This document shows, one piece after another, positions 19,650 to 42,370 of a stretch of DNA of 42,370 nucleotides; the stretch's first letter is position 1, and each line of letters begins with the position of its first letter. Source of the stretch: a virus; the IMG/VR virus record IMGVR_UViG_3300003323_000343, positions 1 to 42,370 of that record, one strand, 5' to 3'. Made by a program: the position numbers and the translations under genes. Under the pieces are notes generated by a model, which searched no databases, was not told the DNA's origin, and saw nothing but the letters and a program-made list of their open reading frames with translations.

Positions 19650-19956
19650 TCTTTCCAGCGCAGCCCAGATCTATACCGGCGACCGGGCGCCGTCCGATCC
19701 GTCGCAGAACACAAAATTTCACCAGGAATTGCTCGACTTTCTTATCGACGGCGCGCGCAGCGTCGGGTGGAGCGGGGCGGAGATCTGCGATTACGACCGG
19801 TTTCAGGATGGCGTGTCGATCGGCATCGCGCCCGGCGAGAGCTGGCCGACGCTCGACGACGTGCGGGCCTGGCGCACCGCGCACCGCAACGATCCGCCCC
19901 GGCGGGTGCCGGAACTGGCAATCGACAATCAAGGACAGGGGAGTTTGGCATTATGA
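19636..19956 (+). CDS. Hypothetical early protein
   Basis: Predicted protein of 106 residues, ATG 19636 with AAGAGGA upstream, overlapping cro and the next gene by a few bases. It starts polar, has a helical middle (HQELLDFLIDGARSVGWSGAEICDYDRF), and ends with a charged tail. No recognised family. It belongs to the early rightward operon. Confidence 0.6.
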   Translation: MPLSDLSSAAQIYTGDRAPSDPSQNTKFHQELLDFLIDGARSVGWSGAEICDYDRFQDGVSIGIAPGESWPTLDDVRAWRTAHRNDPPRRVPELAIDNQGQGSLAL

Positions 19957-20774
19957 ATATGCGTTTATCCCATAACCTCGCAAATTTGGAGATCGGCGAG
20001 AAGCCACGGCTGGAATGGATCAACGTCGATCGCATCCGCGTCGACGACAACTATCAGCGGAAGCTGCAGCCGAGGCGCGTCGGCCAGATCCTGCGGGAAT
20101 TCACCTGGGCGCATTTCGGGCCCGTGATGCTCGCCGAGCACGAGGACGGCACTTTCACGGTGTTCGACGGGCAGCACCGCGTGGAAGCCGCACGGCTCCA
20201 TCCGCTTGTCGACCAGGTGCCGGCGATGATCGTCAGCTTTGACGAAGGCTATGCCGAAGCCGGCGCCTTCATCGGCGTCAATGTCAATCGGACGCAGATC
20301 ACCAATATCGAGCGCTATTATGCCGGCATCGAGGCCGGCGACCAGGAAATGATGGCCGTCTGTGCCGTGCTCGAGGAAGCCGGTTGCGAGGTGGTCGAAG
20401 CCGGAAAATATTCGCCGGCGCCGAACAAGACGGCCGCTGTCAGCTCGCTCAACCGCGCGATAAAACGCTACGGCGCCGAGGCGACAACGGAAGCCTGCAA
20501 GGCCCTGCGTGGCGCCTGGCCGCGTGACGCGAGGGCGCTCAACGGTTCGATGATCTACTGCCTGGCCCGGCTGTTTCACAATAATCGCAAGATCATCCTC
20601 GCCGATCGCATGGTGGAAAAGCTGCGTTCGAAGAACCGCGCGCTGCTGACCGGCGACGCCGAGGCGCTGCGCAAGATCGGCGGCGGCGACAGCATGCTGG
20701 CGCTGACGAAGGCGATCGCCGAGGCGTACAATCGCGGCCTGCAGAGCAACACGATCGGCATCGGCGCAAAATGA
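19953..20774 (+). CDS. ParB/Srx-fold protein
   Basis: Predicted protein of 273 residues; ATG 19953 follows GGGGAG and overlaps the upstream stop, so the longer in-frame extension is rejected. Residues about 22-105 form a ParB N-terminal (sulfiredoxin-like) domain: WINVDRIRVDDNYQRKLQ, VMLAEHEDGTFTVFDGQHRVEAARL, VPAMIVSFDEGYAEAGAFIGVNVNR, with the DGQHR nucleotide-binding box. The rest is helical and lacks an obvious ParB HTH. No ParA ATPase is encoded anywhere in the window, so classical plasmid partition is unlikely. Phage homologues of this form are often annotated as ParB-like nucleases or replication-associated. It may bind DNA such as the nearby iterons; that is inference. Confidence 0.75.
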   Translation: MNMRLSHNLANLEIGEKPRLEWINVDRIRVDDNYQRKLQPRRVGQILREFTWAHFGPVMLAEHEDGTFTVFDGQHRVEAARLHPLVDQVPAMIVSFDEGYAEAGAFIGVNVNRTQITNIERYYAGIEAGDQEMMAVCAVLEEAGCEVVEAGKYSPAPNKTAAVSSLNRAIKRYGAEATTEACKALRGAWPRDARALNGSMIYCLARLFHNNRKIILADRMVEKLRSKNRALLTGDAEALRKIGGGDSMLALTKAIAEAYNRGLQSNTIGIGAK

Positions 20775-21122: not shown

Positions 21123-21629
21123 ATGACGGACGTGCAGACCATAGAGCAGCAGCGAAAACGCTATGACATTTCCGTCCGGGCCTTGTGCTCGGCCGCAAAC
21201 ATCGACGACAGTACCTATGGCCGCCTGCTGCGCGGCGAGCAAAAAGCGCGCGGCTCGACGATCGCGCGGCTCGAGGCCGGGCTGAAGGCGGCGCGCAAGG
21301 GCGATGCCAATACGCGGCTCGACCTGATCTGGCGGCTTTTGACCGCCTTGATGGCCTTCGACCGCAACATTTCGATCGAGCGGCTGAAGGCGCACAACCC
21401 GCAGGACAAGGCGACCAGCGACCCGAAATGGTGCGAGGTGCAGGAGCTGCGCGACCTGGCCGTCTATGCCCTGCATGCCGTGGTGGGCGTGCCGAATGTC
21501 GAGATCGCCCGCGTCGCCAAAGTCAAGCCGGCGGCCATCACCTATGCCGTGCAGCGCGTCGAGGAACGGCGCGAAAAGCTGCTGACCGACAAGATGTTCG
21601 ATCTTTTGGAAGAGGCGGTGTCAGGATGA
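21123..21629 (+). CDS. Dual helix-turn-helix DNA-binding protein
   Basis: Predicted protein of 168 residues with two candidate DNA-binding parts. An XRE-like HTH covers about 12-60 (YDISVRALCSAANIDDSTYGRLLRGEQKARGSTIARLEAGL). A second, DnaA domain IV-like segment covers about 105-155 (LRDLAVYALHAVVGVPNVEIARVAKVKPAAITYAVQRVEERR). The combination would allow recognition of two sites. In the early operon, just before methyltransferase and primase, it is a candidate replication initiator or activator. The likely targets in this genome are the iterons, the GGTTAG cluster or the late promoter-like elements, none proven. It overlaps the methyltransferase gene (ATGA). Confidence 0.65.
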   Translation: MTDVQTIEQQRKRYDISVRALCSAANIDDSTYGRLLRGEQKARGSTIARLEAGLKAARKGDANTRLDLIWRLLTALMAFDRNISIERLKAHNPQDKATSDPKWCEVQELRDLAVYALHAVVGVPNVEIARVAKVKPAAITYAVQRVEERREKLLTDKMFDLLEEAVSG

Positions 21630-22306
21630 AAGCACTCGACCTGTTCTGTTGCGCCGGGGGGGCATCCGATGGCCTGGTCAGGGCCGGTTTCGATGTGACG
21701 GGCGTCGACATCAAACGCCGGCCGAACTATCCATACCGTTTCATCGAGGCTGACGCGGTCTCGCTCGACATCGACCTTTCCGAGTTCGATTTCATCTGGG
21801 CCTCGCCGCCATGTCAAAGGTATTCTCTCTCCACCCGCAGCCGTAACAATTTCGACGCGGAGAACTATCCGGATCTCATCGATCCGATCCGCCGCAAGCT
21901 CGCAGGCCATCCTTTCACCTGCATCGAAAACGTGCCGCTGGCGCCCTTGCGGCGAGATCTGACGCTCACCGGGCCTTCTGTCGGGCTCCGCAGGATCGAA
22001 CGCAAGCGCTGTTTCGAGCTGAGCTTCCTATGCCTTTCGCCCGGTGCGCCGTCGCTGCCCAGAAGCACATGGGAGAGCGGCGAAGCGATCACGATCACGA
22101 CCAGTCTCAGCTGCAAAAGCCACTTCTATCCGCGCAAGCGTGCCGGCAAAGCAGGCCGCGTGCCGCCAAGCGAGGCGTGCGAGGCAATGGGCATCTTCAG
22201 GCCGATGACCGGGCATGAAGTCGGCGAGGCCATTCCGCCGGCTTATGCGCAGTTCATCGCGACCGAGGCAATCCGCCAAGGCTGCGGCCGGAGGGCTGCC
22301 GCATGA
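21626..22306 (+). CDS. C5-cytosine DNA methyltransferase
   Basis: Predicted protein of 226 residues, short for the family but with the core motifs: motif I LDLFCCAGGASDGL (4-17), motif IV SPPCQRYS with catalytic Cys63, motif VI ENV (101-103), motif VIII-like RRIERKRCFE (122-131), and a motif X-like GEAIPPAYAQFIA near the end. The target-recognition region is small. It would methylate cytosine in phage DNA, probably to evade host restriction; no partner restriction endonuclease is present. It is coupled to genes on both sides by ATGA overlaps. Confidence 0.85.
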   Translation: MKALDLFCCAGGASDGLVRAGFDVTGVDIKRRPNYPYRFIEADAVSLDIDLSEFDFIWASPPCQRYSLSTRSRNNFDAENYPDLIDPIRRKLAGHPFTCIENVPLAPLRRDLTLTGPSVGLRRIERKRCFELSFLCLSPGAPSLPRSTWESGEAITITTSLSCKSHFYPRKRAGKAGRVPPSEACEAMGIFRPMTGHEVGEAIPPAYAQFIATEAIRQGCGRRAAA

Positions 22307-23412
22307 TCTCCGATCGCGACGAGATCAAGGAGATGCTCAAGGTCCGCATCGAGGATCTGTGCAGAAAACTATTGCCGGACGGCCGGCAGGACGGGCGGTT
22401 CTGGGTGTCCTACAATCCGGTGACCGGCGATTACGACCATTCGACGCCGGAATTCAAGGTGCCCCTGAACCGCGATATCGGCGCCTGGAAAGATTGGCGC
22501 AGCGGCGAGAAGGGCGATGTTTTCAGCCTGATCGGCTACATCAAGGGTTTTGACGATTTTCGCGACATCATGCGCTTTGCGCGCGATTTTCTGGGCCTGT
22601 CGCAGATGAGCGCCGCCGATCGGCGGGCGATGGAACAGAAGATGCGCCGGCAGGCCGAGGCCAGCCAGCAGAAAAGCGAGGACGATCGCCGGCGGCAGAT
22701 CGAGCGCGCCGAAAAGCTGTTCCTCGAGGGCCGGGCGCTCGGCGCTGGCAGCGCGGCCGAGATCCATGCCCGAAAGTATTTTGCGGCGCGCGGCTGCGCG
22801 CTGGAAGAAATCAAAAACCTCGACGAGACGACGTTTCGGTTTTCGGCCGCGACCGAATGGTGGCGCGGGGCCGAGTGGCGGCATGAGGGCAACCGGCGGA
22901 TCAAGAGCAAGGACGGCCAAAAGTTTCCGGCCGTGCACAGCGCCATGCGCGGGCCGCTCGGCCAGGTGCTGGCGGTGCATTGCACCTTTCTCGATCCGAT
23001 CAGGCCTGCGAAAGCGCCGGTGACGCCGGCGAAGCTGATGTTCGGCCCGGCCAAGGGCGCCGTGATCCGGCTGACCGATGGCCCGGAGGGAGTTCCTCCC
23101 GAGGCTGCTGTCAAAGCGACGCCGGTGATTGTGTGTGAGGGGATCGAAACCGGGCTGTCGCTGGCATCCGGCATTCCGGAAGCGCGCGTCTGGGCGGCCG
23201 GATCTCTCAGCAACATGGGCAATGCGCCGGTGTGGATGGATTGCGTCGGCGCCGTGATTTTGGCGCGCGACAACAACGAGGGCAATGCCCAGGCGGAAAA
23301 GCAGCTCGAGGGCGTGCTGGAACAGCTCGCCAAGGCCGGCAAGCCGATCGAGGTGATCGCCAGCCATGTGGGCGATGATTTCAACGACTTGGGCCGCGGC
23401 GAGGACGCCTAG
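22303..23412 (+). CDS. Toprim primase
   Basis: Predicted protein of 369 residues, ATG overlapping the methyltransferase stop. The N-terminal 110 residues resemble primase N-terminal regions (FWVSYNPVTGDYDHSTPEFKVPLNRDIGAWKDWRSGEKGDVFSLIGYI) but without a CHC2-type zinc finger. A charged linker follows. The C-terminal half is a Toprim domain: VIVCEGIETGLSLASG with Glu279 and AVILARDNNEGN with the acidic pair site near 320. It should make RNA primers for phage DNA replication, together with the P-loop ATPase at 26303, which carries no Toprim of its own. No DNA polymerase is encoded, so the host enzyme is probably used. Confidence 0.75.
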   Translation: MISDRDEIKEMLKVRIEDLCRKLLPDGRQDGRFWVSYNPVTGDYDHSTPEFKVPLNRDIGAWKDWRSGEKGDVFSLIGYIKGFDDFRDIMRFARDFLGLSQMSAADRRAMEQKMRRQAEASQQKSEDDRRRQIERAEKLFLEGRALGAGSAAEIHARKYFAARGCALEEIKNLDETTFRFSAATEWWRGAEWRHEGNRRIKSKDGQKFPAVHSAMRGPLGQVLAVHCTFLDPIRPAKAPVTPAKLMFGPAKGAVIRLTDGPEGVPPEAAVKATPVIVCEGIETGLSLASGIPEARVWAAGSLSNMGNAPVWMDCVGAVILARDNNEGNAQAEKQLEGVLEQLAKAGKPIEVIASHVGDDFNDLGRGEDA

Positions 23413-23501: not shown

Positions 23502-23845
23502 ATGGATATGCAGGCATTTTCGCGGGAAAACCGCGCACGTTGCGAAGCTCCGAACGGTTTCAACCATCCGCTCGCCGGCTGGACCTTGTCGGATTGGATG
23601 ACGGCCGTGACCGGCGAGCTCGGCGAGGCGGCGAACGTGGTCAAGAAACTCAACCGCTTCCGCGACGGCATTCCTGGCAACACGAAAAGCTACGAGGATC
23701 TGCGCGCGCAGCTGCAGGGCGAACTCGCCGACACGTACATTTCCTCGACTTGCTGGCCCAGGCAGCCGGTATCGATCTGCCGGCTGCAATCCGCGAGACG
23801 TTCGATCGCAAGAGCGCACAACTCGGATACGTGGCCGGCAAATGA
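23502..23845 (+). pseudogene. mazG: MazG-like pyrophosphohydrolase, frameshifted
   Basis: The N-terminal 80 codons read as a MazG-like protein (GFNHPLAGWTLSDWMTAVTGELGEAANVVKKLNRFRDGIPGN, with the GELGEAAN metal-binding box), up to ELADTYI near 23741. The original frame then turns into arginine-rich non-homologous sequence. The expected continuation (LDLLAQAAGIDLPAAIRETFDRKSAQLGYVAGK) is in the -1 frame and ends at 23845, exactly in an ATGA overlap with the next gene. One missing base near 23742 would explain this. Either the gene is broken or the base is a sequencing error; no standard -1 slippery heptamer is seen. An intact protein would hydrolyse nucleoside triphosphates. Confidence 0.75.
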
Positions 23846-24114
23846 CCTATCCGAAGAACGACGAGGTTTCCGACGAGGTGCACGGCGTTGCCGTCGACCG
23901 GCTGAGAAGCTTTCTCACCCGCATCGAGCGCCTCGAGGACGAAATCAAGGTGATCAACGAAGACAAGAGCGACGTCTACGGCGAGGCCAAAGGCGAAGGC
24001 TTTGACGTCAAGGCGATCAAGCAGCTGGTGCGCGAGCGCCGACGCGATCGCGACCAAGTGAAAGAGGAACGCAACATCCTCGATCTCTACCGCACGGCGC
24101 TCGGCATGGAATAG
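23842..24114 (+). CDS. GapR-like (DUF2312) DNA-binding protein
   Basis: Predicted protein of 90 residues that matches the GapR/DUF2312 pattern along its length: VAVDRLRSFLTRIERLEDEIKVINEDKSDVYGEAKGEGFDVKAIKQLVRERRRDRDQVKEERNILDLYRTALGM. GapR of Caulobacter is a nucleoid-associated protein that clamps overtwisted DNA and aids topoisomerases ahead of replication forks. The family is alphaproteobacterial and common in their phages, which supports the host guess. It is translationally coupled to the mazG frame and lies in the replication part of the early operon. Confidence 0.9.
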   Translation: MTYPKNDEVSDEVHGVAVDRLRSFLTRIERLEDEIKVINEDKSDVYGEAKGEGFDVKAIKQLVRERRRDRDQVKEERNILDLYRTALGME

Positions 24115-26302: not shown

Positions 26303-28222
26303 ATGCCGAAAAAACCCAAGACACAGACAGGCACGGCGGCGATCCGCGCGCATTGGCTCGATGCGCAGCGCGCGCTCGAGGACAGCAAGCCGATCGACGA
26401 TCCGGACTATAACCAGGCCCGCACATTCGAAGGCCTCGGCACGATACGCCCCGGCCAGTGGGACGGCTTTCCGCACAATAAAATGCCGCCGCGCTGCCCG
26501 ATCCGCGTGCTCGGCATGAAAGGCGAGCTGATCTACATCGTCGCCGCCACCGGCATTCTGATGCCCGTCGACCGCTGGGATTTTCCGACGATCATGAAGC
26601 TTTTCGCGCCCTACCCGAACTATCCGTTCTGGGCCTGGCCCGGCTTTGGCCCGTCGCCCGGCCGCGACCAGGACGGCAATCCGCTGCCGCCGATCGTCAA
26701 GCGCCTCGAGCGCGACAAATGCTCCGGCTGCCTGATCGCCGAGGCCGGCCGACGCGGCATATTCGATCCGGCCGAGCGCGTGCGCGGCCGCGGCGGCTGG
26801 AAAACCGACGATGAAAGCTTTGTCTGGCATAGCGGCAACAGGCTTTGGCGCGTCGAAAGCCGGAAGCACGGCGACACAATCGAACACGGCCTGCAATGGG
26901 GTAAGCCCGACGAATATATGGGGCATTTCTACGCCCAGGACAGCGGCGTGCTGGAGCCTTGGTCGACCAGCGTCGAGACACGCGACAGCCCGGCGCATGC
27001 GCTGTGGGAAGCGCTGATGAGCTGGAATTGGGAACGCAAATGGCTCGACCCGATCCTGTTTCTCGGCTGGCTGGCGACCGCGATGATGGGCGGCGCGCTC
27101 GACGAGCGGCCGATCATCTTTGTCACCGGCGGCCGCGGCTCCGGCAAATCGACGCTGCACGATCTCGCCAAGGCGATTTTTGGGCGCACGCTGTTTTCCT
27201 CGGCCAACACCACGGCCGCCGGCATTTACCAGAAAATCAAGCACGACAGCCGGCCGGTGATGATCGACGAGCTCGAGGCCAAGGCGCGCGGCGACAAGGA
27301 ACAGGCGATCATCGAGATCGCACGCCAGAGCTATTCCGGCGCAGAACTCTATCGCGGCGGCCAGAACCATGACGGCGTGGAATTCGCGCTGCGCTGCAGC
27401 TTCGCGTTCTCGGCCATCATTCCGCCTGTGCTGACCGTGCAGGACCGCAGCCGCATGGCGATATTGAACCTGCGGCCGCTCGCCGGCGGCACCGAAAAAG
27501 AGCCGGTGATCGGCGCCGAATGGGGCCGGATGATGCTGCGCCAGGTGATGGATGGCTGGCAGGATTTCAACGACACGCTGCTGCCGCGCTGGCGCCGGCG
27601 GCTGCATAAGGCCGGCTTCGACGCGCGCATGATCGCCACCTATGGCACGCTGCTGGCCGCGGCCGAGCTGCTGATCGGCGAATTCGGCCTGGTGGCGGCC
27701 GGTTTCCACGACAATCTCGGCGACGGCAAGATCGACGACGAGCTGGTGATCGAGGCGATCCGCACCGATACCAGGAGCGAGATGATCGACCAGGTGGAGA
27801 AGTGGCAGGACGTGATCGAGCGGATCCTGACCGCCACGATCGACAACTGGAAGAGCGGCGAACGGCCGACGATCGGCCAGGTGCTGCAGGAATACGAGGA
27901 CGGGCTCAAGCCCGGTGGTAGCGGCATCACGCTCGGCGAGGCCCGCCGGCGGCTCGAGGCGGCCGGCCTGGGGCTGGTGGAGGCCAATGCCGGCAAGACC
28001 AAGGGTTACGCGCTGGCGGTGCCCAGGAGCCATCCCATGCTCGACCGGATGTTCGGCGACACGGACTATCGCGGCGGCAACTGGATGGCAGCGCTGAAGC
28101 AGGCGCCGGAGGAGATCGCGCCCAGGCGTTTCTGGGGCCATACGATCAAGATCAGCAAGGCGGCTACCTATTGCCTGCTGGTGGACATCGAGGCGTATGA
28201 GAAGCGCAGCAGCGGGCAATGA
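26303..28222 (+). CDS. P-loop replication ATPase / helicase
   Basis: Predicted protein of 639 residues, ATG 26303. The N-terminal 170 residues include CSGCL and many aromatics, resembling the non-ATPase part of phage primase-helicase relatives. The central domain has Walker A GGRGSGKST (276-284, Lys282) and Walker B VMIDE (319-323), then a sensor-like FAFSAIIPPVLTVQDRSRM. It lacks a Toprim, which is in the 22303 gene. Expected role: the DNA-unwinding or loading ATPase of phage replication. It has its own short unit between two UUCG-loop terminators, so it needs a promoter of its own or read-through. A DUF927-like or other transposon ATPase reading is less likely, given the context. Confidence 0.75.
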   Translation: MPKKPKTQTGTAAIRAHWLDAQRALEDSKPIDDPDYNQARTFEGLGTIRPGQWDGFPHNKMPPRCPIRVLGMKGELIYIVAATGILMPVDRWDFPTIMKLFAPYPNYPFWAWPGFGPSPGRDQDGNPLPPIVKRLERDKCSGCLIAEAGRRGIFDPAERVRGRGGWKTDDESFVWHSGNRLWRVESRKHGDTIEHGLQWGKPDEYMGHFYAQDSGVLEPWSTSVETRDSPAHALWEALMSWNWERKWLDPILFLGWLATAMMGGALDERPIIFVTGGRGSGKSTLHDLAKAIFGRTLFSSANTTAAGIYQKIKHDSRPVMIDELEAKARGDKEQAIIEIARQSYSGAELYRGGQNHDGVEFALRCSFAFSAIIPPVLTVQDRSRMAILNLRPLAGGTEKEPVIGAEWGRMMLRQVMDGWQDFNDTLLPRWRRRLHKAGFDARMIATYGTLLAAAELLIGEFGLVAAGFHDNLGDGKIDDELVIEAIRTDTRSEMIDQVEKWQDVIERILTATIDNWKSGERPTIGQVLQEYEDGLKPGGSGITLGEARRRLEAAGLGLVEANAGKTKGYALAVPRSHPMLDRMFGDTDYRGGNWMAALKQAPEEIAPRRFWGHTIKISKAATYCLLVDIEAYEKRSSGQ

Positions 28223-28248
28223 GCCCGCGCCCGTCAGCGAGGATCCTG

Positions 28249-28272
28249 GCCGCCTTCGGGCGGCTTTTCTTT
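28249..28272 (+). terminator. Terminator after replication ATPase
   Basis: GCCGCC/GGCGGC arms (28249-28254, 28259-28264) with a TTCG loop, then CTTTTCTTTT-like T-rich sequence. It faces the replication ATPase gene. Confidence 0.85.
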
Positions 28273-28322
28273 TGCGTGAAAGCTGCGCAGGATACACGTC
28301 TTGAGTCTCATGGGAGGGGCGA

Positions 28323-28700
28323 GTGGTCATTTTCTGGCTGATCATTGCAGTCGTGGCGTTTGTCGCTTCCAATGTGCTGCTTGAGCTGAGGCGGCGCGCA
28401 GCAAGGCGCACATCGCCACAATCGACAGAGCGCTTCGATGTGTTGTGGCCAGTCCTGAAGCATTATCCTGCGGTCCTGAAGCTGCTGGTAGATATGAACG
28501 GCCTGAAGCTAGGCGACTTCCAGGGGATGCTGCGTGCGATCCTGCATGCCCGCACTGTCACCGGGGCAGACCAACGGCTCTCTCTCCTCGGAGTAGATGG
28601 GGCTCTCAGCGAGAGCTTTTCCGGCGATGTCAGGAGAGAACTGATCGACATGTCAGTCGAAGACCTGCAAAATCTGTGCGCCGTTTTGGAGGCCATCTGA
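28323..28700 (+). CDS. Small membrane-anchored hypothetical protein
   Basis: Predicted protein of 125 residues, starting at GTG 28323 after GGGAGGGG. An N-terminal membrane helix (VIFWLIIAVVAFVASNVLLEL, residues 2-22) is followed by a basic stretch and a soluble helical domain. It stands alone between two terminators, after the replication genes and before the packaging module, with codon use less GC-biased than neighbours. This isolation suggests a moron-type gene, perhaps expressed in the lysogen; function unknown. Confidence 0.6.
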   Translation: MVIFWLIIAVVAFVASNVLLELRRRAARRTSPQSTERFDVLWPVLKHYPAVLKLLVDMNGLKLGDFQGMLRAILHARTVTGADQRLSLLGVDGALSESFSGDVRRELIDMSVEDLQNLCAVLEAI

Positions 28701-28723
28701 GCGTCGCAAATCGATAAATCCCC

Positions 28724-28774
28724 AGCCCATTTTGTGCGGCGCATTTAACTTTTCCCCTGCCCCTGGGCTTTTTT
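28724..28774 (+). terminator. Possible weak terminator
   Basis: AGCCCA (28724-28729) can pair with TGGGCT (28764-28769) directly before six T, but the loop is 34 bases. It lies 24 bases after the membrane protein gene. Confidence 0.35.
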
Positions 28775-28782
28775 AAAGCGGA

Positions 28783-28883
28783 GCTCGCCTGCTGTTCGCT
28801 GCGACGGCTTGTAACGCCTCACCGCCGACCCGATGGACACCATCGTGCCGGCGATCGGCGCAGCCGTCTTGCGGCAGGCGAGC
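28783..28883. other. 101-base nested multi-stem fold
   Basis: Four nested stems: GCTCGCCTGC/GCAGGCGAGC (28783-28792 with 28874-28883), GACGGCT/AGCCGTC (28803-28809 with 28862-28868), CGCCGA/TCGGCG (28823-28828 with 28855-28860) and CGATGG/CCATCG (28831-28836 with 28840-28845). All are perfect and in order, making a long bulged hairpin in a gene-free stretch. It may be a structured RNA or a packaging/replication site. Confidence 0.6.
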
Positions 28884-28950
28884 AACGAACGCAGCGCGAT
28901 CCGTGGGAGATTGGCAGCGTCGGGGCCGATTGCGCCGCCGGCAAGCGCCT

Positions 28951-29185
28951 GGTTAGGCGGGTTAGGGAGCGGTTAGATCCGACCTAACCGTGAAACATAA
29001 ATAAAATCAACGACATGAGCGGGTGGTTAGATGGTTGGGTCTCGATCTATGGATTATCTCACACGCGCGCATGCGCATAGCGCGAGACTTTTACACCTAA
29101 CCATCTAACCGTCAGGATATATATTTGAATTTGTTGAAGAAACACGGTTAGATTTGAACCTAACCGCGATCTGACCGGCCTAACC
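28951..29185. repeat. Cluster of ten GGTTAG/CTAACC hexamers
   Basis: GGTTAG at 28951, 28960, 28971, 29025 and 29146; CTAACC at 28984, 29097, 29105, 29160 and 29180. They form CGGTTAG...CTAACCG pairs (28970-28990 and 29145-29166) and a 12-base inverted pair (29025-29036 with 29099-29110) around a GCGCGCATGCGCA core. AT-rich tracts lie between them. The cluster is just upstream of the small terminase gene, so terminase (pac/cos) binding or a replication origin are the leading readings. Confidence 0.75.
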
Positions 29186-29210
29186 GATTATTTTAATAGG
29201 GAAAAATGCC

Positions 29211-29843
29211 ATGGCGACCGATGACAGCGCCGAAAATGGGACTTTTGAGGGTGCGCACGGGGCGGAAAAAATTTCGGTCGATGCGGCCAGAGCGGCGAAG
29301 GTCGGCATCGTCCAGGCCGAGGCCGAAGCGGCGATGGCGGGTTTCCTCGGTGAGCTCCAGCAGCCGGAGGCCGAGCAGGCGGAGCTCGCCCTCGATGAAG
29401 ATTGCCTGTTCTCTGGGCCTGTCGATCATGTGGCGAAAACCATCGAAGGCGCTCGCGGGCGCGGGAGGCCTAAGGGCAGCCAGAACAAGAACAGCTGGCG
29501 CGACACCATGTTGCGCATGGGCTATCGGCATCCGGGCGAGAACCTGCTGCGCATTGCCAATGCGGATCCGATCAAGCTCGCCGAGGAACTGTCTCAGCCC
29601 TACACCGCCGGCAAGGGGCCGAAAGAGGGCAAGCTGGTCGAGGCCAGCATGACGCCTGCCGAGGCCCTGGGCCTGATCCTCAAAGCCAACGCCGAGCTGC
29701 TGCCGTACTTCGAAGGCAAGGCCGCCCAGGAGATCAACCACAACATCAAGGCGCTCGGCGTCATGGTGATCGGCGACATGCGGACGGAGACCAAGAGCGA
29801 CGGCGGCATGATCTCGCTGACCGATGTCGAAAAGCCGGAGTGA
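29211..29843 (+). CDS. terS: Small terminase subunit (probable)
   Basis: Predicted protein of 210 residues, ATG 29211 after AGGGAAA. An acidic N-terminal 75 residues is followed by GARGRGRPKGSQNKNSW (about 82-98), the basic AT-hook-like entry often seen in phage DNA-binding packaging proteins, then a helical domain with KAAQEINHNIKALGVMVI. It lies directly before the large terminase and after the GGTTAG cluster, which fits a DNA-recognition subunit. The name rests on position and the basic motif, not on a clear family match. Confidence 0.6.
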   Translation: MATDDSAENGTFEGAHGAEKISVDAARAAKVGIVQAEAEAAMAGFLGELQQPEAEQAELALDEDCLFSGPVDHVAKTIEGARGRGRPKGSQNKNSWRDTMLRMGYRHPGENLLRIANADPIKLAEELSQPYTAGKGPKEGKLVEASMTPAEALGLILKANAELLPYFEGKAAQEINHNIKALGVMVIGDMRTETKSDGGMISLTDVEKPE

Positions 29844-40348: not shown

Positions 40349-42370
40349 ATGAACCTCAATCCGAACGTCGTCTCCTATCAGCCGCTCAATCTCCAGCCGG
40401 TGCGCCAGCAAGGGCTGATCCCGATCGAATACGCGGATGGCGACCTCTATCGCCGGGCGGCCGCCGGCTTTGCCCGCATCGCCGACACGTTCGCGGAAAA
40501 ATCCCAGCAGGATCAGCAGTACCAGGCCGCACTTGCCGGGCCGCAGGCGGCCTATGCGGGCCTTCCCGGACGGCCGACGATTACCGGCGGCGACCTGACA
40601 CCGGATCCGAAAGCCGCCGTGCCGGGCATAAAGGTCACGCTGCCGCCAAGCGATATCGCCTCGGCGATCGCCACCTCGGCGAAGAAATACGGCGTGCCGG
40701 CCGACCAGCTGACCGACATCGCCTTCCTCGAGAGCAGCTACAACCCGAACGCCCGCAACGGCACCATGGCCGGCCTGTTCCAGTTCTCGCCGGCAACGGC
40801 GAAACAGTACCAGCTGGCAAATCCGTATGACGTGGCGCAGGCCACCGACGCGGCGGCGCGATTTTTGCGCGACAACCGCGCCGCCTTCCGCAACACGGTC
40901 GGCCGCGATCCGAGCGCCGGCGAGGCCTATCTGATGCATCAGCAGGGCCGCGGCGGCGCGCTCAGCCTGCTGGCCCGGCCGGACGCCAAGGCCGTCGATG
41001 TCGTCGGCCGTGACGCGGTGCTCAAAAATGCCGGCAACGAAAACATGACGGCGGCGGAATTCGCCAGATTGTGGACGGGACGGCTCGATACGGCGAATTT
41101 CACGCCGAATGCCGCGGCGCCGGCGGCGGCACGCGACACGAGCAAGGATCTGCCGATCGTGCTCGCCGACGCCAAGGGCCTCGGCCGGCTGGTGCAGCCG
41201 GATATTTCCAACGTCAAGCCGGCGGTGCTCGACAAGTTCAAGCAGCTGCAGAACGAATGGGGCGCGACGATCCCGATCGCCTCCGGATTTCGCGGCGAAA
41301 AGCAGAACGAAGAGGCCGGCGGCGCCAAGCATTCGCAGCATCTCGATGGCAACGCGCTTGATCTCGACGTCACCGGAATGCCGGTGGAAAAGCGCCAGCA
41401 GCTGATCCGCGAGGCCTCGGCGCTCGGCTTTACCGGCATCGGCGTCTATCCGAACTCGCTGCATATCGATCTCGGCCCGCGCCGCGCCTGGGGGCCGAGC
41501 TATCACGCCGACAGCCTGCCGGATTGGGCCAAGTCGGTGATTTCCGACCATATGGCGAGCACCGCCACGACACCGGATGCGACGGCCTCGACGGACGGCG
41601 TCTCGACCCTGCCGGTGACGCTCGACGGACCGCCGCGGGCGATCCCGGTAACGGTCGACCGCACGCCGCTGCAGATCACACCAGGCAAACCCGGCACGTT
41701 CAAGCTGATGCCCGGCAATTCCATCTATGCCCGCACCTACAATGTCACGGGCATGCGAACCTACTTGCAGGGGCTCAAGACCGACATGGTCGACCTGCAA
41801 TCGCAGCTCTACGACAAATACAAGGACGATCCGGTCAAGCTGAGCGCCGCCTATGATCAGCTGCTGCAGGCCGAAAAGGCCGACCCGAACTGGATGCCCG
41901 AGATCGCGCCGGAATACGAGCTCGATTTCCGCCAGGGCGCGAGCGACTTCCTGCGCCAGGCGCAGAGCGAGCAACTGAAAAAGCAGAACGAACAGGACCA
42001 TGCCGATTTCCTCGATCGCATTTCCTCGCTCGAGGATCGCAAGAGCCAGCTGATCGCCGGCCTCGATCCGAAGGATCCGCAGGCCTCGGCCATGCTGGTG
42101 GATCAGCAGAAGACGATCGACAGCCACTATGACAGCATGGTGGCGCGAAACCTGATGTCGCCGCTCGACGCCGCCGCCGCCAAGGCGAAAAGCAAGTCGC
42201 AGATGGTGGTGCCCTATTATCTCAAGCAGGCGGTCGGGCTCGACGCCGGCTCGATCGACGCGCTGCACCAGAAGATGACCGCCGACTATGCCGCCGGCAA
42301 GCTGACCGGCGTCACGGCGGCCGACTGGCAGGATATCGACCAGGGCCTGACGGCAGCCGTCACCCAGCGC
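40349..42370 (+). CDS. Internal virion protein with transglycosylase and M15 peptidase domains (N-terminal part)
   Basis: Open from ATG 40349 to the right edge (674 codons) and continued at 1-1356, for an inferred 1116 residues. Domain 1 (about 100-210) is a lytic transglycosylase: IAFLESSYNP with catalytic Glu128, then MAGLFQFSPATAKQY. Domain 2 (about 285-390) is an M15-type zinc carboxypeptidase: SGFR (312-315), SQHLDGNALDLD with His331 and Asp338, and LHIDLG with His372 as likely zinc ligands. The rest is helical and repetitive in E, Q, D and K. T7 gp16 has the first activity only; here one ejected protein could cut both glycan and peptide bonds during DNA entry. The gene is easy to miss because it has no stop within the window. 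Confidence 0.85.
   Translation, partial: MNLNPNVVSYQPLNLQPVRQQGLIPIEYADGDLYRRAAAGFARIADTFAEKSQQDQQYQAALAGPQAAYAGLPGRPTITGGDLTPDPKAAVPGIKVTLPPSDIASAIATSAKKYGVPADQLTDIAFLESSYNPNARNGTMAGLFQFSPATAKQYQLANPYDVAQATDAAARFLRDNRAAFRNTVGRDPSAGEAYLMHQQGRGGALSLLARPDAKAVDVVGRDAVLKNAGNENMTAAEFARLWTGRLDTANFTPNAAAPAAARDTSKDLPIVLADAKGLGRLVQPDISNVKPAVLDKFKQLQNEWGATIPIASGFRGEKQNEEAGGAKHSQHLDGNALDLDVTGMPVEKRQQLIREASALGFTGIGVYPNSLHIDLGPRRAWGPSYHADSLPDWAKSVISDHMASTATTPDATASTDGVSTLPVTLDGPPRAIPVTVDRTPLQITPGKPGTFKLMPGNSIYARTYNVTGMRTYLQGLKTDMVDLQSQLYDKYKDDPVKLSAAYDQLLQAEKADPNWMPEIAPEYELDFRQGASDFLRQAQSEQLKKQNEQDHADFLDRISSLEDRKSQLIAGLDPKDPQASAMLVDQQKTIDSHYDSMVARNLMSPLDAAAAKAKSKSQMVVPYYLKQAVGLDAGSIDALHQKMTADYAAGKLTGVTAADWQDIDQGLTAAVTQR
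42344..42370. repeat. Terminal overlap, right copy
   Basis: Bases 42345-42370 repeat bases 2-27 in the same reading frame. This is the basis for reading the window as circular. Confidence 0.85.

Follow-up and report, generated by a model that had tools for sequence, protein, structure and literature searches.

The window analysed here, a stretch of 42,370 bases, is the whole of virus record IMGVR_UViG_3300003323_000343. The last 26 bases (42345-42370) recur at bases 2-27 and one long open reading frame, for an internal virion protein/transglycosylase, remains in frame across the join of the ends, so that the record is probably circular and complete; the overlap falls inside a gene and looks like that of a circular assembly without end information. 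Portal (PF12236), major head, tail and internal virion proteins are encoded, as is a LexA/CI-like repressor, and the phage is probably a podovirus-like temperate phage. Features of the region leading to the small terminase gene (terS) are collected in Table 1. The C-terminal domain of the dual-HTH protein matches DnaA domain IV (HMM E 0.0013; VIA Z 10.2). This protein is fast-evolving, its gene stands upstream of that for the primase in nearly all core relatives, and the bacterial genomes that harbour these prophages have, in addition, genes for separate small proteins that match its DnaA-IV-like part. A phage-encoded GapR-like DNA-binding protein (23842-24114; PF10073, E 1.7e-26) is kept in most relatives. 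The hairpin that follows the helicase gene is probably the end of the early operon. Across 28200-29300 an Rfam search gave no match near threshold, a sigma-70 promoter scan near the array returned weak consensus matches only, and a DNA-level search of the region against named phages found no match.

The array begins 729 bp beyond the helicase gene. An exact count returned the ten GGTTAG/CTAACC hexamers, five direct and five inverted, that the first-pass annotation had placed there, where 0.027 would be expected locally (P about 6e-23, from the shuffle rate). The window as a whole contains 12 such hexamers against 4.9 expected (maximum of 10 in 100 shuffles), with only two copies outside the 235-bp cluster. 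Other elements of the earlier description were equally borne out: the 12-base inverted pair is free of mismatches (GGTTAGATGGTT at 29025-29036 against its reverse complement at 29099-29110), the tracts described as AT-rich reach 75-76% AT versus 37% overall, and nothing coding is present, in that no ORF of at least 60 aa overlaps 28745-29192. The core is an alternating stretch of 20 bases (CACACGCGCGCATGCGCATA), somewhat longer than claimed. A two-layer G-quadruplex pattern, also proposed, does occur in the window, yet just 9 of the 34 arrays inspected have it, and it was rejected as a conserved feature of the array. Where a minimum of cumulative GC skew had been sought, the skew is instead at its maximum, and the relatives have no consistent switch at the array (left exceeds right in 33 of 55), which makes GC skew uninformative as an origin marker.

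Two degenerate sites, GGTTGG at 29033 and CGGTCAGAT on the minus strand at 29169-29177, also fit the layout, giving four site sets with an AT-rich tract between inner and outer sets on each side and alternating CG at the centre. In relatives such as L006, L008, L009 and L054, the left inner pair has two intact sites 8 bp apart. Upstream of the array, at 28783-28883, there is a conserved stem, GCCCGCGCC ... GGCGCGGGC in most relatives and GCTCGCCTGC ... GCAGGCGAGC in the window, that encloses a variable stretch of some 80 bases and has changed on both sides in 4 of 8 pairs; in most relatives (equivalents from L004 to L084 compared) the motif CACTTAAC comes after it.

Table 1. Coordinates of the array, its parts and neighbouring features in the window
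Feature	Position	Strand	Remarks
ParB-like protein	19953-20774		PHROG E 1.2e-19
Dual-HTH protein	21123-21629		XRE-type HTH and DnaA-domain-IV-like domain
Separate Toprim primase	22303-23412	+	DUF7146 and Toprim_3; conserved partner, in 51/56 loci
Putative initiator helicase, 639 aa	26303-28222	+	proposed array reader, from predicted fold and word association
Helicase C-terminal part (residues 446-639)	27638-28219	+	identity tracks the word; strongest column 623
Terminator-like hairpin after helicase gene	28248-28265	+	consensus match only
Iteron array (proposed replication origin)	28951-29185	.	ten exact and two degenerate sites; homologous arrays at the same place in relatives
Left outer set	28951-28989	.	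direct sites 28951, 28960, 28971; inverted 28984; same >>>< spacing in relatives with other words
Left AT-rich tract	28991-29018	.	75% AT
Left inner pair	29025-29038	+	GGTTAG 29025; degenerate GGTTGG 29033
Core	29060-29079	.	20-base alternating purine-pyrimidine run
Right inner pair, inverted	29097-29110	-	sites 29097, 29105
Right AT-rich tract	29112-29144	.	76% AT
Right outer set	29146-29185	.	29146 (+), 29160 (-), degenerate 29169-29177 (-), 29180 (-)
Small terminase gene (terS)	29211-29843	+	adjoins array; orthologues in 56/56 loci; word not tracked

Relatives were collected by a large terminase search that gave 17; after extension the set comprised 44 viral loci and a further 18 from bacterial genomes, which include Rhizobium, Stappia, Aureimonas, Aurantimonas, Pleomorphomonas and Labrys. 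The array was surveyed in the 56 loci where the region is intact, which are Rhizobiales-type prophages and contigs from IMG/VR, and every one has a cluster of a single short word just upstream of terS, with about 12 sites over about 240 bp. The layout is near-constant, [>>><] AT [>>] alternating-CG core [<<] AT [>>>(<)], with site positions matching to a few bases between phages that have different words, and with the sites of the inner direct pair, like those of the inner inverted pair across the core, 8 bp apart. The alternating run has a median length of 19.5 bases in 34 arrays and is almost never matched elsewhere in the same loci. In the window and in the relatives, this centre is a Z-DNA-prone purine-pyrimidine run, not AT-rich DNA. 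About 15 words were distinguished, each uniform or nearly so inside one phage: GGTTAG, GGTTACC (with GGTTGGC variants in some phages), GGTAACA, GGTAGAC, GGTTGAC, TGTAGG, AATTAGA, CGTTACC, GGTTGAA, GGTTACG, GGTTACA, GGTTATG, GGCTACC, AGTTGCC and GGAACC, the classes having been set by hand from de novo motifs, with a few phages mixing two related words. That a dozen sites change in concert while their scaffold stays fixed implies a trans-acting reader that imposes the word. No paper on rhizobial prophage origins with this layout was found in the literature searched. Repeats in both orientations, in a phage that encodes a ParB-like protein, might also be read as a partition or centromere-like site bound by that protein; this is extremely improbable, as the array is found in all of the first relatives and the ParB-like gene in only three (flanks end near the gene), related copies are embedded in large bacterial contigs in the manner of integrated prophages, and the word tracks a different protein, the helicase.

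For each pair of loci it was asked whether a shared word raises the identity of a protein beyond what the other proteins predict. Significance was taken from label permutation, which removes phylogeny and recombination only in part, and the main safeguards were the helicase's own ATPase core and TerS as controls, TerS being encoded nearer to the array than the whole of the helicase. Among 42 dereplicated loci the helicase stands out (z 4.3, p 0.0005), the primase association is marginal (p about 0.05), and no clear association with the word was found for the dual-HTH protein, the GapR-like protein, TerS, TerL or portal. When domains were compared in 34 common loci, z was +5.0 (p 0.0002) for the C-terminal part of the helicase (446-639), -0.5 for its ATPase core, +1.6 for the primase, -1.9 for TerS and 0.0 for GapR; portal, at +2.1 in this test, indicates how much noise remains. 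Once the ATPase core is included as a control, the C-terminal value is 5.9, and it stays at 4.6-6.1 when each word class in turn, or all loci above 80% TerL identity, are dropped. A sliding window placed the signal mainly at helicase residues 426-621, with smaller peaks at 1-46 and 207-266, and in a column-by-column comparison residue 623 gives the highest signal, with several residues at 553-613 coming next.

Individual loci illustrate the same relationship. L049 (AATTAGA) and L062 (CGTTACC) differ in word, and their helicases are 57% identical, whereas their dual-HTH, primase, GapR, TerS, TerL and portal proteins are 85-97% identical. Conversely, L051 and L062 have one word in common and 85% identity between their helicases, with dual-HTH, primase, GapR, TerS and portal at 35-76% and TerL at 88%. 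At residue 623 L049 has Y, as does the window, and the word of L049 ends in TTAGA like that of the window; close kin of L049 with CGTTACC have K. The comparison of L049, L062 and L051, together with the statistics, moved the reading from the dual-HTH protein, with its DnaA-like domain, to the helicase, which in the first-pass annotation had been the "replication ATPase" and is most likely the array reader on this covariation. Of the readers proposed in that annotation (the small terminase and the ParB-like, GapR-like and dual-HTH proteins) none is favoured; TerS, the GapR-like and dual-HTH proteins, and the primase with its marginal value, were rejected as word readers for want of a clear association.

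That the dual-HTH protein reads the array as an operator or late promoter, controlling the late operon or acting as initiator, is accordingly a quite unlikely account. The DnaA domain IV fold binds 9-mer arrays, orthologues are present in nearly all core relatives and the array lies upstream of late genes, but neither of the protein's two domains follows the word (z +1.1 and +0.7), and the XRE recognition regions of L051 and L062 differ strongly despite the common word. The protein may nevertheless be a second or accessory factor at the array. The region may contain a late promoter too, given that the late operon begins directly behind it and that the terminator-like hairpin follows the helicase gene; this and other functions proposed for the region are compatible with an origin. 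Mere physical linkage, by which word and helicase C-terminus would recombine together without functional contact, is less probable again. The 3' end of the helicase gene does encode the part of that protein nearest the array; however, TerS is far nearer, at tens of bases, with no association, and the gap between helicase gene and array among the relatives runs from 407 to 6471 bp (6.5 kb in L078, 4.1 kb in L069). The uniform layout and the concerted change of all sites call for a trans-acting reader, and arrays also go with the helicase in unrelated phages.

The helicase was modelled with AlphaFold2 and 39 orthologues (mean pLDDT 88.6). Its best structural match is SCCmec type IV Cch (5dgk; VIA Z 16.2, rmsd 6.0 over 428 residues, 55-634), followed by MCM helicases and the SaPI5 primase-helicase (Z 13.2), and Foldseek matched the C-terminal region of NrS-1, SaPI5, PriRep1 and D5/E5 helicases. 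The model thus has the ring ATPase of the Cch/SaPI5 Rep fold plus an extra C-terminal domain. DUF927 (PF06048) scores 15.7 bits, below its gathering cut-off of 22.6; the P4-type primase C-terminal model (primase_Cterm) matches weakly and below cut-off in 14 of 39 members (best E 0.0004); TIGR01613 falls far below cut-off; and a PDB sequence profile gave a weak P-loop match only. On its predicted structure the helicase is assigned to the initiator-helicase fold class, and no named sequence family is claimed because curated families matched only below their cut-offs.

More distant phages, a small sample of partial stretches, were found through the helicase (12 phages, 24-32% identity) or through the terminase (7), and an array was counted where short words exceeded 20 shuffles in the stretch read. 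Eight of the 12 helicase relatives have one (phi1422, S-H1, Acjo_20, MQ-4, MinM1, ZRG1, MT835534 and MT835930), and four have no array above shuffles within the stretch read. Among the terminase relatives, Vibrio phage vB_ValP_VA-RY-3 alone has an array, with nine AGGATA words within 300 bases between genes (L104, near 4867), possibly another kind of array. In Bdellovibrio phage phi1422 an unannotated array of about 12 copies of GGTAAC (L093, 7663-7963), laid out <<<> << >> >>>, starts about 10 bases after the helicase gene. Synechococcus phage MinM1 likewise has, directly after its helicase gene, about 12 unannotated copies of TGTGAG around a CGCGCGCGC core (L098, 8466-8700). From their sequence these two arrays are probably the origins of the named phages.

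The position of the core-family array directly upstream of terS is what would be anticipated for a packaging site (pac or cosB-like), with the small terminase binding the repeats and packaging starting by its own gene; repeats bound by small terminases are known elsewhere. The first-pass annotation had offered packaging and a replication origin without ranking them. The packaging half is unlikely on the present evidence, for TerS fails to follow the word (z -1.0 to -1.9) even with the start of its gene only tens of bases from the array, and the TerS proteins of L049 and L062 are 92% identical although the words differ. In MT835534 several hundred bases separate the array from terS, in phi1422 and Acjo_20 it adjoins the helicase gene instead, and six phages with related terminases (BcepC6B, Ss1, Rollin, Y3, RHph_TM3_14A and Mx8) have no such array in the stretch read. 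The origin half stood, with strong support from the relatives, the helicase covariation and the unrelated phages that have only the helicase in common.

The array is therefore very probably the site at which replication of the phage DNA starts. The fuller reading, in which the array is an origin whose word is read through the C-terminal domain of a self-loading initiator helicase, is held with considerable confidence. Its support consists throughout of sequence statistics and structure prediction, namely the constant layout, the concerted word change, the C-terminal covariation and the initiator-helicase fold. Several points count against it: GC skew carries no signal; the core-family array stays by terS and not by the helicase gene; four of the 12 helicase relatives lack an array above shuffles in the stretch read; and helicase residues 1-46 and 207-266 and, in one test, portal have some association too, under a label permutation that models phylogeny and recombination incompletely. 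In the proposed mechanism, the ring helicase would recognise the repeated word by contact of its C-terminal domain with DNA, and helicase rings would assemble face to face on the inner pairs [>>] and [<<], with the outer sets assisting. DNA would then melt in the alternating-CG core, in the flanking AT tracts or in both, and the separate Toprim primase would start synthesis; origin firing and fork direction we infer as well. Origin word and helicase C-terminal domain appear to change specificity together. As helicase and origin are both phage-encoded, the word is free to change if the C-terminal domain changes alongside, which would give private, phage-specific origins.

The evidence leans modestly toward a broader generalization, that in a large and mostly unannotated set of tailed phages the C-terminal domain of a self-loading initiator helicase and the origin word switch together, providing each lineage with a private address on a conserved 12-site scaffold with a Z-DNA-prone core. 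If this is true, pairs of word and domain would be a natural specificity code and origins would become predictable from sequence. The array offers a concrete way, from sequence only, to locate the origin in a widespread prophage family, and likewise in several unrelated phages with this helicase. With about 15 origin words set against about 40 reader domains, the relatives form a natural data set that makes co-change of initiator and origin specificity directly testable. Speculatively, a private origin might make it harder for satellites to exploit the phage or for co-resident prophages to cross-replicate.

Among known systems, phage P4 offers a phage-type initiator helicase, alpha, acting with short repeats at ori and crr, and weak P4-family primase matches were noted above. 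P4 alpha, which reads its own repeats, combines primase and helicase in one protein, and P4 requires two cis sites apart from each other, whereas here the primase is a separate gene and ten of the window's 12 hexamers fall in a single 235-bp cluster. The origins of SV40 and papillomavirus have two direct and two inverted short sites around a centre, with AT-rich DNA alongside, loading two facing hexamers. They are cited as analogy only, with no homology claimed, and there an N-terminal origin-binding domain is used, while here it is the C-terminal domain that tracks the word; origin recognition by the T-antigen and E1 helicases has been described (PMC7581432). In a DnaA-type oriC a DnaA domain IV would read the array; the dual-HTH protein includes a domain of this kind, although that protein does not track the word. 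SCCmec provides the best structural match, Cch, but SCCmec lacks virion genes, Cch2 has three AAGTG iterons, and DUF927 and primase_Cterm stay below cut-off in the phage helicase.

SaPI Rep and SCCmec Cch2 read iterons with a C-terminal domain, and the purified domain of Cch2 binds iteron DNA (PMC7581432). PICI origins are iteron sets around AT-rich DNA, a pri-rep-ori segment drives plasmid replication (PMC6092414), and the iteron sets lie downstream of rep (PMC7581432, PMC6092414). The present arrangement resembles these elements (SaPIbov1, SaPI5, EcCICFT073) in the fold of its initiator helicase, in element-specific iteron words, and in multiple short iterons downstream of the gene. A C-terminal reader is likewise probable here, on strong covariation, and AT-rich DNA lies between the inner and outer members of four site sets. 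It differs in that the array belongs to a full tailed phage with capsid and tail genes, not a satellite; the origin would lie 0.4-6.5 kb from the helicase gene and against terS, not immediately 3' of rep, a position met only in distant phages such as phi1422; the centre is alternating CG with AT tracts on both sides; twelve sites stand in a fixed layout with inner inverted pairs; and the primase is a separate Toprim protein. By analogy, the best explanation of the scheme is a tailed-phage variant of the SaPI/PICI Rep-ori system.
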